From Anaerovibrio lipolyticus LB2005 (GTDB lineage: Bacteria > Bacillota > Negativicutes > Selenomonadales > Selenomonadaceae), in the NCBI RefSeq assembly GCF_000621545.1, contig NZ_JHYA01000002.1, positions 1-64,000 on the forward strand: DNA of 64,000 nucleotides, read 5' to 3'. Below the pieces are notes generated by a model. The model was given only the letters and a program-made list of their open reading frames with translations, made no database searches and had not been told where the DNA came from. Positions within the stretch are counted from its first letter, which is position 1, and each line of letters opens with the position of its first letter. Shown here piece after piece: positions 10,722-49,555 of this stretch. Both the position numbers and the translations under genes were made by a program.

Positions 10722-10763
10722 TTCTGAAGAGTCTGTGAAAAAATCTCTGTGACGAACCTAAAA

Positions 10764-10805
10764 ATCCCGTCTGCTGGTGGCATTACGCTACCTGTCAGAC
10801 GGGAT
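10764..10805. terminator. Repeat-family terminator hairpin, copy 1 (after hicAB)
   Basis: The outer stem ATCCCGTCTG / CAGACGGGAT (10 bp, perfect) encloses an inner GGTGGC / GCTACC stem. A-rich sequence on the left gives a T-run on the minus strand, so it mainly ends hicAB, but TTTT on the right allows it to serve the Sel1 gene too. It is near-identical to 11566-11607 and 12818-12858. Confidence 0.8.
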
Positions 10806-10834
10806 GTGTCTTTTAAAGACAATATAAAATGAAT

Positions 10835-11493: not shown

Positions 11494-11565
11494 TATTCTA
11501 TTCTAACCCAACAGATATTCATTTTAGTTAATAGTATTCCAGCAAGGTGCAAGAGAGGAGAAAAA

Positions 11566-11607
11566 ATCCCGTCTGCCGGTGGCTTTGAGCCACCTGTCAG
11601 GCGGGAT
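11566..11607 (-). terminator. Repeat-family terminator hairpin, copy 2 (after Rpn gene)
   Basis: The outer stem ATCCCGTCTG / CAGGCGGGAT has one G:T wobble, with inner stem GGTGGC-tttga-GCCACC. AAAAAA on the left gives a T-run on the minus strand, directly downstream of the Rpn-family gene. Relative to copy 1 the inner stem differs only on its 3' arm, giving a perfect G-C pair where copy 1 has a wobble. Confidence 0.8.
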
Positions 11608-11627
11608 AAGTTTTTGGTGTAAAAAAT

Positions 11628-12817: not shown

Positions 12818-12858
12818 ATCCCGTCTGATTGGCGGCTATGCAGCCAATCAGACGGGAT
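12818..12858 (-). terminator. Repeat-family terminator hairpin, copy 3 (after Rpn tail)
   Basis: The outer stem ATCCCGTCTG / CAGACGGGAT is identical to copy 1; the inner stem is ATTGGCGGC / GCAGCCAAT, different in sequence but still paired. AAAAA on the left provides the minus-strand T-run. It lies immediately downstream of the orphan tail gene. Confidence 0.8.
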
Positions 12859-12878
12859 AAGTCTTTTGCGGTAAAGCA

Positions 12879-14702: not shown

Positions 14703-14850
14703 ATTATAACGAGCTTTAAGATGTCCCCTTCCTCTTTAGGTGGGGGAAAACAAACTACAACAGCTGGTGAGCATATCTCCCAGCTCGTTGAAACGCTAAT
14801 TGGAAGATTTTTCTTCTAAAGAAGAAAAATTTGAACAATGGCGTTATAAT
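14703..14850. repeat. Structured dispersed repeat, element C
   Basis: The 148-bp element is bounded by a perfect 9-bp inverted repeat, ATTATAACG (14703-14711) and CGTTATAAT (14842-14850). Inside are CGAGCT / AGCTCG (14710-14715, 14782-14787) and a 10-bp hairpin ATTTTTCTTC-TAAA-GAAGAAAAAT (14807-14830) set in the shared frame AACGCTAATTGG ... TGAACAATGGCG. It belongs with 26990-27102 and 31703-31824. Compared with those it lacks a segment of about 25 bases after CTCGTTG and carries a longer first arm. Confidence 0.7.
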
Positions 14851-14954: not shown

Positions 14955-15152
14955 TTAACGAACCTGGCCAACCAATACCTGAATTTCTTCCTCAGTAAGG
15001 CTGGTGTACTTGACAATTTTCTCAATAGGCTCCTCAGCTCTCAGCATACGCATGGCCGTACGACGATTTGCAGCATTCTCACCCTTGATAATGCCCTTGG
15101 AGAGACCATCATTATAGGATTCCATAAGTTTAAGTTCAAGGCTCATATACAT
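14955..15152 (-). CDS. Orphan C-terminal tail of an Rpn-family protein (second)
   Basis: About 65 residues. 'ANRRTAMRMLRAEEPIEKIV', then 'KYTSLTEEEIQVLVGQ', aligns with the tail of the 11628 protein ('AMLKKNEPIEKIAEYTGLTT') and with the 12879 fragment. There is no nuclease domain. Start choice among the clustered GTG/ATG codons at 15155, 15152 and 15146 is uncertain. It is a remnant or free tail protein, with its own terminator. Confidence 0.5.
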   Translation of the reverse strand: MYMSLELKLMESYNDGLSKGIIKGENAANRRTAMRMLRAEEPIEKIVKYTSLTEEEIQVLVGQVR

Positions 15153-15326
15153 CACGCTTTCCGTAAGTTATCTTTTATAAGATTATACCATTTTTGGATA
15201 TACATAAAAAGCTAAATTTTTATATATGTGAATATCATTTTAATAATATCATTGATGGTATCAAAAGTCAACTAAATGGGAGAATAAGCTATCTATGATA
15301 TTGTTTTCTATATGGAATTCTCTTTG

Positions 15327-26989: not shown

Positions 26990-27102
26990 TATAACGAGAT
27001 AAAAACTGAACTCGTTGCGACGCGAAGCTAGTCCTGAAAGGGAAACGCTATATGGAATATTTTCCCATATAAATATGGGAAAATTTGAACAACTGCGTTA
27101 TA
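26990..27102. repeat. Structured dispersed repeat, element A
   Basis: The 113-bp element is bounded by TATAACG (26990-26996) and CGTTATA (27096-27102). It contains AACGAG / CTCGTT (26993-26998, 27011-27016), a shared block from CTCGTTG through GAAACGCTA, identical to element B over about 40 bases, and a 12-bp perfect hairpin ATTTTCCCATAT-AA-ATATGGGAAAAT (27059-27084). The closing frame TTGAACAACTGCGTTATA matches the other copies. It lies between the folC terminator and the next gene. Confidence 0.75.
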
Positions 27103-27143: not shown

Positions 27144-28364
27144 TTGAGTGGGTTAAAGAGATTGGCATCATCTCGGGCCGTTAAGGATACAATTTATTTA
27201 TCAATTTTGATGGAGGCTTTTTTCATCGGATTATCACAAACGGTTGCTATAGTATTCATGGGAATTGGCATAGCATTATTTTTGCTTCGCTGGTGGAAGG
27301 ATCCGGATTTCCATGTAAAGCGTACCACCTTTCATTGGCCCATTATTGTTTACTTGTTGTGCAGTGCAGCATCAATATTAGTATCACCTGATAAGATGTA
27401 TACGCTGACGATATGGTTTGTGCTGGTAATAATTTATTTATTGACTTATGTGCTGGTGACCCAAAACATGGAAACCCCTCGGCAGGTAAGATTGCTGGCT
27501 TATTCTTTGGGGGCGTCAGCAGCCATTATTGTGGCCTACGGCTTTTTCCAGTTTATTTTTGGTATTGATACCTCGGAAATGAAATGGGTCGATGGTGAAG
27601 CCTTTCCGGAGCTTAGCAAGCGTGTCTTTTCAACTCTTGAGAATCCCAATATATTGGCCGCATATCTGGATATAGTGGTTTGCGTTCTCCTGGGGCTTTT
27701 TGGTACGCTGACTGAGAAGCGTATCCGTATTGCACTAGGGGTAGCTATGGTTTGTACCCTGGGATGTATTGCCATGACCTATGCTCGTGGCGCCTGTCTT
27801 ACCATCGCAGTTATCATGGCTGGTTATGGTGTATTGAAGGACAAGCGTATTTTGGCGGCAGTGGCAGTGCTGGTGGCAGGATTTCTGTTGTTGAATCCGG
27901 TGCTGTTTGAACGCATGAGCACTATGTTTACAGTTGTGGACACATCATCCGAGATGCGTATTGCTATGTGGGAAAGCACCATACAGATGATTTTGGATCA
28001 TCCCCTTTTTGGTATTGGTGGTGGCGCCTATTCGCTGGTTTATCCTATTTATGATACCTACATTGTAGATGGCAGTGTGACTTTGGTTCATGCCCATAAT
28101 ATTTATCTGAACTATCTTGCTGAAATTGGTATTGTGGGTGGATGCGCTTTTTTGGTATTCTTTTTGGGATATACTATTACTGCCCTGCATCCTCAAAAGA
28201 CTATGCCTGATGAATTCTCCAAGGGCCTGATGCTTGGTTTGGGTCTGGGGTTGGTGTCTGTAGCCCTTAATGGCCTTACAGATGATGTATTGTATAATGT
28301 CCCTTCATCCATGTTCCTGTGGATGATTTGCGGGCTAGTGTATGTAATGAAGGAGAAGATATAA
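27144..28364 (+). CDS. O-antigen ligase family protein
   Basis: 406 residues from TTG 27144, with GAGGTGAGAG just upstream. About ten to twelve transmembrane helices. The Wzy_C/WaaL signature occurs late: 'MRIAMWESTIQMILDHPLFG', 'GIGGGAYSLVYPIYDTY', then 'VHAHNIYLNYLAEIGIVGG', with the conserved His-x-His-Asn in a periplasmic loop. Members ligate or polymerise undecaprenyl-linked glycans, consistent with a diderm envelope. Without glycan genes nearby the substrate is unknown. TerC follows three bases after the stop. Confidence 0.82.
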   Translation: MSGLKRLASSRAVKDTIYLSILMEAFFIGLSQTVAIVFMGIGIALFLLRWWKDPDFHVKRTTFHWPIIVYLLCSAASILVSPDKMYTLTIWFVLVIIYLLTYVLVTQNMETPRQVRLLAYSLGASAAIIVAYGFFQFIFGIDTSEMKWVDGEAFPELSKRVFSTLENPNILAAYLDIVVCVLLGLFGTLTEKRIRIALGVAMVCTLGCIAMTYARGACLTIAVIMAGYGVLKDKRILAAVAVLVAGFLLLNPVLFERMSTMFTVVDTSSEMRIAMWESTIQMILDHPLFGIGGGAYSLVYPIYDTYIVDGSVTLVHAHNIYLNYLAEIGIVGGCAFLVFFLGYTITALHPQKTMPDEFSKGLMLGLGLGLVSVALNGLTDDVLYNVPSSMFLWMICGLVYVMKEKI

Positions 28365-29071: not shown

Positions 29072-31717
29072 ATGAGCTTAATGGGTTTAAGTTCTGCTGA
29101 AATTGAAGAACGTCGGGCCAGATATGGCAGCAATTCTCTGACTCAGCTTGAAAGGGATTCTCTGTTTAAAAAGATTTTTCAGGGGTTTAAGGACCCCATG
29201 ATAATGATTCTGTTAGTCGCTCTGATTATTCAGGGCGTACTTTATTTTATGGGCCAGGCGGAGTGGTTTGAGCCCGTTGGAATAATGGTGGCTATTCTTA
29301 TCGCCAATGGCGTTGCTTCTGTCAGCGAATATAATCAGGAAGGTAAAGCTGTGACCCTGCGAAATGACGAAGCTGCCAAGGATATAACCAAGGTTCTTCG
29401 TGACGGCGAATTGTCGGAGATTCCTGTCAGTGACGTGGTGTCTGGGGATATTGTATTTTTACAGGCCGGGGACCGACTTCCTACAGACGGATTGTTGGTT
29501 GAGGGCTCTGTGCATATTGACCAGTCTGTATTGAATGGTGAGACTGAGGAAATATTAAAATGTCCAGTGGATAATGAGGCCAGTGATGGCTATGATGCGG
29601 AGGATTTGCTTAATCCACATTATGCTTATCGTGGTACGGTGGTGTGCAGTGGTGAGGCATATCTGGAAACCAGTGTAGTGGGGGATAAAACACTGTTTGG
29701 TCAGTTGGCTTTGGAAGCGCAGTCTACGGCCCGCAGGACACCACTACAGGTGAAGCTGGATAAGCTGGCCCATCATATTTCTGCCTTTGGCTATATAGGT
29801 GCAATTGCTATTGTGCTGGGCATTCTCATAAAGACCTTTGTTACTGGGGAGGCTCCTGACAATTTATGGGGCTGGGTGCGCCTGATTATTGATGCGGTCA
29901 CTGTAGCTGTAACTGTTATTGTGTGTGCTGTTCCTGAGGGCTTGCCAATGCTTACCTCCATGCTCCTTTCCGTTCAGAGTCTGAAAATGGAGAAGGACAA
30001 TGTTTTGGTCAAGAAAATAAATGGTATTGAAACCTCGGGCAGCTTGAGTATCTTGTTTAGCGACAAAACAGGTACTATTACCGAGGGAAAGCTGTCAGTG
30101 GTAGATATAGCACTGGGAGATTTAGTACATTTAAAGCATATTGGTAATCTTGAGCTGAAAAGCAATGAGGGAACAGAGGCTTCAGGGGAATATATCAACA
30201 AGTTTATAAAAGCCGCTGGACTTAACAATAGTGCCCACCCGGGAGCAGATTCTGTAATCGGCGGTAACAGTACGGACCGTTCCATAATCAAGGCATTGAT
30301 GGATGCTGGTCTGACCGACGCCATTAATCGTGATGAGGCCCTTGGCTTTAAATATTTTAATTCCAGGGACAAGTATTCTGCAGTGGCAGTAAATGAAGAT
30401 GATAAATGCATTTGTTATCTTAAAGGAGCCCCGGAGGTATTGTTGGAAAAATGTCATCAGTATCTGGGAGCAGATGGTTCCCTGCATCCGTTAAATTCTA
30501 TCAATGAAATTCAAAAATATATTGATAATCAGGCTGGTCGCTCTATGCGATTGTTGGCGGTGGCTTATGGTGCGGGACATGTCAATGAAAATGGTGAGGC
30601 TGAGACTGAAGGCAGTCTGACACTGATTGGTATTATCAGTATTCGTGACAACCTTCGCCCCGAGGCTATGGGGGCTATTCGCGAGGTTCAGAATGCCGGA
30701 GTACAGGTGGTTATGATTACTGGTGATAAGCGGGAGACTGCTGTGGCCATAGCCAAGGAATCCGGCCTTATTCACTCTGATGATGATGTGGTGCTGACCT
30801 CTGGTGAAATGAAGAAAATGTCAGATGATGAGCTGAAGAAAATATTACCTCAGCTTCGGGTGGTGGCGAGAGCCTTGCCTACTGACAAGAGTCGTTTGGT
30901 AAATATTGCTCAGGAGCTAGACATGGTGGTGGGCATGACTGGCGACGGTGTAAATGATGCCCCTGCACTAAAAAAGGCAGAGGTTGGCTTTGCCATGGGA
31001 AGTGGAACAGAGGTAGCCAAGGAGGCGGGAGATATTACCATTCTTGATGATAACTTCCGTTCTGTAGTTAAGGCAATTCTATATGGCCGTTCAATATTTA
31101 AGAGCATCAGAAAATTTCTTATCTTCCAGCTGACGGTTAATGTGGCGGCTGTACTGGTGTGCTTTTTGGGACCAATGCTGGGAGAAAACATCGTGCTTAC
31201 AGTGATACAGTTATTGCTGATTAACTTGGCTATGGATACCTTGGCGGCTATTGCCTATGGAAGTGAGCCAGCTTTGCAGGAGTATATGCTGGAAAAGCCG
31301 GTGGCCCGTCAGGAGAATATTGTTACTAAAAAAATGCTTACTCAGGTCATTATTAATGCTTTGGTTATTACGGTAATTTGTCTGAGCATTTTGTTCTTTG
31401 AACCGGTAAGGGCACTTTTTGGAGATGTTACAGTAACATATTTGAAGTCGGCGCTTTTTGCCACCTTTATGATGGCCATTACTTTTAATGGCTTTAACGC
31501 CCGTACGGATCATATTAATGTATTTGAGCATCTGGGCCGTAATAATACCTTTTTGTTGGTGAGCTTTGCTATTTTTGCCATGCAATGGGTATTTGTGGAA
31601 TTCGGCGGCGAGGTTTTAAGCGTTGAGCCCCTTTCCTTAAAGACATGGCTTATATGTGCCTTCATGGCAATATTGGTCATACCAGTAGACGTTATAAGAA
31701 GAATAATAACGAGGTGA
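29072..31717 (+). CDS. Calcium-type cation-transporting P-type ATPase
   Basis: 881 residues. P-type ATPase motifs: the TGE-equivalent 'VLNGETEEILKC' in the actuator domain, 'CAVPEGLPMLTSMLL' (PEGLP of P2-type Ca pumps) in helix 4, the phosphorylation site 'FSDKTGTITEGKLS', 'KGAPEVLLEKC', and 'GDGVNDAPALKKAEVGFAMG'. The C-terminal four helices are present. The last codons (for Ile-Ile-Thr-Arg) and the stop lie inside repeat element B. The substrate is probably Ca or Mn, given TerC upstream. Confidence 0.92.
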   Translation: MSLMGLSSAEIEERRARYGSNSLTQLERDSLFKKIFQGFKDPMIMILLVALIIQGVLYFMGQAEWFEPVGIMVAILIANGVASVSEYNQEGKAVTLRNDEAAKDITKVLRDGELSEIPVSDVVSGDIVFLQAGDRLPTDGLLVEGSVHIDQSVLNGETEEILKCPVDNEASDGYDAEDLLNPHYAYRGTVVCSGEAYLETSVVGDKTLFGQLALEAQSTARRTPLQVKLDKLAHHISAFGYIGAIAIVLGILIKTFVTGEAPDNLWGWVRLIIDAVTVAVTVIVCAVPEGLPMLTSMLLSVQSLKMEKDNVLVKKINGIETSGSLSILFSDKTGTITEGKLSVVDIALGDLVHLKHIGNLELKSNEGTEASGEYINKFIKAAGLNNSAHPGADSVIGGNSTDRSIIKALMDAGLTDAINRDEALGFKYFNSRDKYSAVAVNEDDKCICYLKGAPEVLLEKCHQYLGADGSLHPLNSINEIQKYIDNQAGRSMRLLAVAYGAGHVNENGEAETEGSLTLIGIISIRDNLRPEAMGAIREVQNAGVQVVMITGDKRETAVAIAKESGLIHSDDDVVLTSGEMKKMSDDELKKILPQLRVVARALPTDKSRLVNIAQELDMVVGMTGDGVNDAPALKKAEVGFAMGSGTEVAKEAGDITILDDNFRSVVKAILYGRSIFKSIRKFLIFQLTVNVAAVLVCFLGPMLGENIVLTVIQLLLINLAMDTLAAIAYGSEPALQEYMLEKPVARQENIVTKKMLTQVIINALVITVICLSILFFEPVRALFGDVTVTYLKSALFATFMMAITFNGFNARTDHINVFEHLGRNNTFLLVSFAIFAMQWVFVEFGGEVLSVEPLSLKTWLICAFMAILVIPVDVIRRIITR

Positions 31718-31824
31718 AGAAGGTCCATTCCACCTCGTTGCGACGCGAAGCTAGTCCTGAAAGGGAAACGCTAATTGGAAGTTTTTCTTCTAGGGAAGAA
31801 AAACATGAACAATGGCGTTATTAT
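31703..31824. repeat. Structured dispersed repeat, element B
   Basis: 122 bp bounded by ATAATAACG (31703-31711) and CGTTATTAT (31816-31824), a perfect 9-bp inverted repeat. Its second arm is ACGAGGTG / CACCTCGT (31709-31716, 31731-31738). The 40-base core block is shared with element A, and the third hairpin is GTTTTTCTTC-TAGG-GAAGAAAAAC (31781-31804). Bases that differ from the other copies are compensated on the opposite arm. The left end overlaps the 3' end of the P-ATPase gene, and the operon terminator lies 13 bases to the right. Confidence 0.75.
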
Positions 31825-49416: not shown

Positions 49417-49555
49417 ATATAACAACCTCCTTAATAATAATTATTAATTACACTCCACGATTATAACATAAATAAGAAAAATTTCCTAATATAATGTGGG
49501 AAAAATAAAATGATTGCGGTATAATGTAGTGGTGTTATTAATATGGAGGAAGATT

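Follow-up and report, generated by a model that had tools for sequence, protein, structure and literature searches.

IS630/mariner-derived MITEs such as RUP are small, AT-rich and inserted at TA-rich sites. The Correia elements (CREE) of Neisseria and other promoter-bearing MITEs are short, non-coding and dispersed, often lie just upstream of genes and carry an outward sigma-70-like promoter sequence at one end (PMC10969869), and REP/REPIN sequences and IS200/IS605 ends have in common imperfect hairpins, intergenic location, high copy number and no clear target duplication (PMC3116915, PMC6006769). We report a family in Anaerovibrio lipolyticus LB2005, followed up from one copy (element C) in a stretch of 64,000 nucleotides (the window), which resembles each of these groups in the traits just given, its promoter sequence being a predicted one. 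Literature searches returned no description of this family.

Unlike CREE, the Anaerovibrio family has a target duplication of 2 bp at most and terminal repeats of ~4 bp, its two hairpins keep structure over sequence, and TATAAT is rebuilt from half-sites. It departs from REP/REPIN and IS200/IS605 in that no Y1/RAYT enzyme was found in the host, TAT^AAW is conserved on both sides and hairpin 1 starts at the boundary with no 5' guide, and from the IS630/mariner-derived MITEs in that 10 sites are incompatible with a TA duplication and no IS630 transposase was found in the genus. The family is a promoter-associated miniature element whose target is unusual, and taking the explanation as a whole, element C is very probably a short non-autonomous mobile DNA element that inserted recently. 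Its parts and those of A and B are as follows.

14703-14707, + strand: left target flank ATTAT, pre-existing DNA outside the element, present in the empty site of genome G002.
14708-14847, + strand: element C proper, 140 bp, AACGAG...GGCGTTAT, with bounds from the allelic empty site in G002; copies 100-94% identical at loci L002-L005.
14708-14789, + strand: hairpin 1 of C, outer stem 14708-14715 with 14782-14789, from folds and from the covarying outer stem in short copies.
14725-14746, and 14762-14767 with 14780-14785, + strand: extra internal hairpins within hairpin 1 of C, from folds.
14792-14796, + strand: AACGC of C, whose partner is GCGTT (14841-14845) at the right end, from pair counts, with a compensated C-G to U-A change in 2 rows.
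14807-14830, + strand: hairpin 2 of C, ATTTTTCTTCT/AGAAGAAAAAT, with 42 distinct arm pairs across the family.
14831-14847, + strand: conserved right-end core TTGAACAAtgGCGTTAT, from near-invariant alignment columns and genus-wide counts with reversed-pattern controls of zero.
14848-14850, + strand: right target flank AAT, present in the G002 empty site, giving TATAAT once joined to the element-end TAT.
26993-27101, + strand: element A, in the predicted -10 box (TAT^AAT) that precedes the gene at 27144; G002 has the empty site TTTTTTGTATAATTATATG, and G014 is empty too.
27018-27042, + strand: 25-nt foreign repeat within A, with stand-alone copies at L029, L031, L037, L055 and L056.
31708-31821, + strand: element B, empty in G014, G006, G013 and G011 and filled in G008.
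31741-31765, + strand: 25-nt repeat within B, the same as in A, with stand-alone copies elsewhere.

According to a covariance model, A, B and C are the sole family copies in the window. The basic unit is a two-hairpin form of 80-90 bp, which reads TTAT, hairpin 1, GAAACGC-spacer-hairpin 2-TTGAACAAnNGCGTTAT, AAT, and its AACGC pairs with the GCGTT of the right end. C and its near-identical relatives have ~57 additional bases inside hairpin 1, and the resulting 140 bp is the form now spreading. The perfect 9-bp terminal inverted repeats of the preliminary description are exact as read (ATTATAACG, 14703-14711; CGTTATAAT, 14842-14850), and they consist partly of target DNA: the element's own share is AACG/CGTT and the right-hand TAT, and the left ATTAT and right AAT belong to the target, as shown by a sister genome, whose empty site is CAATTGTAGTATTATAATTGAATAAG. 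That description also took about 25 core bases missing from C as a clue to the minimal unit, which does not hold, for in A and B this stretch is an unrelated repeat sitting after hairpin 1 and found alone elsewhere; the minimal unit is the two-hairpin form and is not defined by what C lacks.

The inserted repeat, GCGACGCGAAGCTAGTCCTGAAAGGG, is a second dispersed repeat (found at L045 in addition to the five loci listed above), which occurs on its own within a palindromic intergenic element of ~190 bp, whose ends lie near AAACTTTTTGTTGC / GCAAGAAAAAGTTT, and also inserted into members of the present family. Another hairpin repeat, AAAAATCCCGTCTG..TGGTGGC..GCCACCTGTCAGACGGGAT, is present three times in the window (10760-10813, 11562-11615 and 12837-12867), and a similar sequence comes after an element copy in another species (L086). 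The short ORF adjoining C (14955-15167, - strand) resembles by eye the C-terminal end of what we take to be an Rpn-type recombination-promoting nuclease.

Evidence for mobility comes from allelic empty sites, which were found in sister genomes for all three window copies. At the C locus G002 reads GTATTATAATTGAATAAG, with a left flank identical at 300 of 300 positions, and in G008 this empty right junction recurs next to different upstream DNA. Further empty, paralogous and nested sites were also found. At the B locus G002 carries AATAATAACGAGATAG, which is either the exact remnant expected of a deletion between two GAG repeats or chance ancestral sequence. AGAATAATAACGAGATAG at this locus in G002 (L212) resembles the footprint of element loss via such a deletion. 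The family is a MITE in the broad sense, i.e. short, non-coding, with many copies at unrelated loci and allelic presence/absence; the strict sense calls for terminal repeats of ~10 bp or more, and here there is only AACG/CGTT once target DNA is removed, with a target duplication of at most AT (2 bp), which is indistinguishable from none.

Searching C against its own genome with BLAST gave 61 matches at ~40 places, and B as query added further matches (copy number for this genome being derived from BLAST plus pattern searches). Of 16 genomes of the genus, 10 contain the exact core TTGAACAAYNGCGTTATA, each with 14-97 occurrences, and the remaining six lack it; the reversed-pattern control gave zero matches. 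Certain other genera and a sister family have the core once or a few times, in one case 20 times. The named records carrying the family belong to Anaerovibrio and Selenomonas. The suspicion that the three copies represent a genuine repeat family is thereby borne out. The 29 copies of the 140-bp form compared, drawn from several genomes, have a median pairwise identity of 98.6% and include 80 identical pairs; near-identical copies are present at unrelated loci. Plasmid and phage collections gave zero matches to the element, and the 17 exact matches to an 18-base core in viral contigs, all lacking hairpins and most of them coding-like, were taken as chance. A non-mobile, native promoter motif with a palindrome, kept in the lineage, would fit the old copies at -10 positions and the occurrence in Selenomonas as well, and is highly improbable given the empty alleles, the nested insertions, the near-identical copies at unrelated loci, the species of the genus without an exact core, and recent copies such as C, which do not precede a gene.

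Tandem arrays of 2-3 units of ~82 bp were seen at L034, L154, L045, L079 and L176, which either slippage or recurrent insertion at the same TTAT^ end could explain; their internal junctions often read TTATGTCGAG, which leaves no -10 box there. Perfectly palindromic mini-forms with long inverted ends (TTATAACGCAGTTGTTCAAATTTTGCC..GGCAAAATTTGAACAACTGCGTTATAAT) are present in Selenomonas-related records (L104, L134 and L146), and the one at L134 is flanked on either side, 43-47 bp off, by gene starts with ribosome-binding sites.

The hairpin arms show strong covariation. Compared with shuffled sequences, C folds with an RNA z of -6.85 (A -4.7, B -3.9), and 0 of 200 shuffles of C fold as well. The compensated arm differences that first drew attention to this locus are present (GAGCT/AGCTC against GAGGTG/CACCTC, and an outer A-T against G-C in the third hairpin), and over 24 short copies the covariation is significant: 98.3% of the cells are paired, both sides change in 9 of 18 pairs (7 of 8 for hairpin 1 alone), and none of 500 shuffles matches the observed paired cells or covariation score. 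An intrinsic terminator or a chance inverted repeat would share the stable stems, and is practically negligible as an explanation with dozens of homologous copies, the shuffle result and no T-run, TTGAACAATGGCG coming after the stem; the preliminary description had likewise set a plain terminator aside.

For hairpin 2 the 768 pair cells of the 42 distinct arm pairs comprise 761 Watson-Crick pairs, 3 G-T and 4 A-C, and because G-T and A-C are equally rare, and a selected RNA should tolerate G-U, the pairing points to a DNA palindrome and not to RNA. These palindromes are presumably kept for recognition or through hairpin-templated correction. The inference from compensated change to conserved structure holds for a DNA hairpin, with such correction as a possible contributor. 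A structured non-coding or cis-regulatory RNA family, in which the covariation would come from selection on a folded transcript, is compatible with the strong covariation, the low folding energies and the many old copies upstream of genes. Against this, a conserved RNA should be G-U-enriched on its own strand, the copies are mobile, the genes downstream are unrelated and include tRNA genes just 12-15 nt off, in old copies hairpin 1 disappears first and hairpin 2 next, with the right-end core staying, and Rfam (Rfam 15) gave no relevant match at gathering or permissive thresholds, so we regard an RNA family as very unlikely. Of the earlier alternative between a structured RNA and a miniature mobile element, the second half is supported by the empty sites and the near-identical copies at unrelated loci; strong covariation alone does not mean RNA.

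The target was derived from 59 sites flanking BLAST-chosen copies in four genomes, a first set of flanks having been put aside as partly chosen by a pattern containing TATAAT. Insertion occurs between TAT and AA(T/A), with no target duplication beyond 2 bp at most. The consensus is (T/A)AT^AA(T/A), most commonly TAT^AAT (29 sites), with T at -1 in 59/59, A at -2 in 58/59, A at +1 in 56/59 and A at +2 in 58/59 sites, and T at +3 enriched (35/59, p 1.7e-5). All 59 sites would allow an AT duplication, and the 11 sites with a non-consensus flank confine any duplication to this AT. A TA duplication was ruled out by the 10 sites with AAT at the left, and an integron attC-like site, considered on account of TTATAAC/GTTATAA, was rejected as the core does not fit GTTRRRY. 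Since the right end is ...GCGTTAT and the target gives AAT, insertion rebuilds TATAAT.

The mobilising enzyme was sought among six Pfam transposase families and at a few loci, and as carriers may largely follow phylogeny, correlation with the element has low power in this search. At E 1e-5 the Y1 domain was not found in five genomes that all carry the element (G000, to which the window belongs, and G014, G013, G009 and G011), the IS110 (DEDD) transposase was not found in four carriers (G000, G014, G013 and G010), and IS630 (DDE_3) was not found in the genus. TnpB was not detected in this genome and occurs mainly in non-carriers, i.e. it is anti-correlated with the element, and DDE_Tnp_1 and rve do not track it. 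Element ends were absent from the few transposase loci checked, and the search for an insertion sequence bounded by two right ends gave only palindromic mini-forms; one right-end pair 2 kb apart was judged to be two unrelated copies. The mover is possibly a DDE family outside those searched or an unlinked single-strand enzyme.

A tentative alternative is a MITE of the conventional DDE-transposase kind, ending in AACG/CGTT, duplicating 2 bp (AT) and mobilised by an insertion sequence family other than those searched. The AT duplication fitting all 59 sites and the long inverted ends of the mini-forms are consistent with it; it sits poorly with terminal repeats of only ~4 bp, with the asymmetric target (A at +2 in 58/59 vs T at -4 in 26/59), with the absence of IS630 from the genus and with the lack, among the loci seen, of a full-length insertion sequence having such ends. 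More doubtful is an IS200/IS605-type or REPIN-type single-strand element cut by a Y1 HUH transposase at the TTAT beside each hairpin. The subterminal hairpins, the tandem arrays, the lack of a clear duplication and the likeness of left flank and right end (WAT and TTAT) agree with it, and the AACGC/GCGTT pairing recalls the guide/cleavage-site pairing described in PMC6006769; on the other side stand the missing Y1 and TnpB, the conserved right-flank AA, which such a mechanism does not need, and the lack of room for a guide 5' of hairpin 1, even if the right side has its pairing partner AACGC. Finally, the target might be the -10 hexamer itself, entered at TAT^AAT perhaps while RNA polymerase holds the bases single-stranded, by a hairpin-recognising enzyme from a group with no previous link to such elements, which we consider speculative and rather unlikely.

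The position of many copies points to promoters. Start codons with a ribosome-binding site 15-100 bp downstream outnumber divergent starts upstream in all three forms, by 20 to 6 in the big form (p 0.009), 25 to 2 in the two-hairpin form and 28 to 5 in the hairpin-2 form, and older copies are almost solely 15-100 bp upstream of genes. Part of this bias could reflect selective survival and not targeting. Three tRNA genes begin 12-15 nt after the TATAAT of an element, and no -35-like hexamer is evident at the normal distance. In the window, a promoter-like TTTCCTAATATAATGTGGGAAAAATAAAATGATTGCGGTATAATG upstream of a gene (49470-49530) is possibly a decayed right end, though unscored by the covariance model.

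The clearest case is apt, where the element entered the gene's own predicted -10 box and, in several species, has since been reduced to its right end. G013 is empty, with TATGGTATAATGAAATGG as the native -10, and the decayed copies of G000, G002, G008, G014 and G006 end in GCGTTATAATTAAATGG or similar: in G008 hairpin 2 survives with some of the spacer, in G014 and G006 a hairpin-2 remnant, and in G000 and G002 the right end alone. All have TATAAT here. As flanks of old copies come mostly from a pattern requiring TATAAT, the 59-site set and apt are the data free of this bias.

Together these observations outline the following route. The element enters between TAT and AA(T/A), its own terminal TAT and the target AAT restoring TATAAT, so that an invaded -10 box is left intact, as read at A and apt. 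A copy whose right end faces a gene may then be kept as its left part decays, and judging from position, conservation and tRNA spacing the right end, often retained beside the gene's promoter, would become its upstream half. The hairpins are probably DNA structures recognised, perhaps single-stranded, by a mobilising enzyme acting in trans, which raises the question of what enzyme mobilises an element with two hairpins if the usual hairpin transposases were not found in the genome. If the -10 box is indeed targeted, promoters would survive the spread of the element through them. By rebuilding TATAAT at insertion, a small selfish element could seed promoters and persist, and its copies are traceable from fresh insertions via two-hairpin forms to bare right ends common to orthologous genes, which makes promoter exaptation countable within a genus of cultured rumen bacteria.
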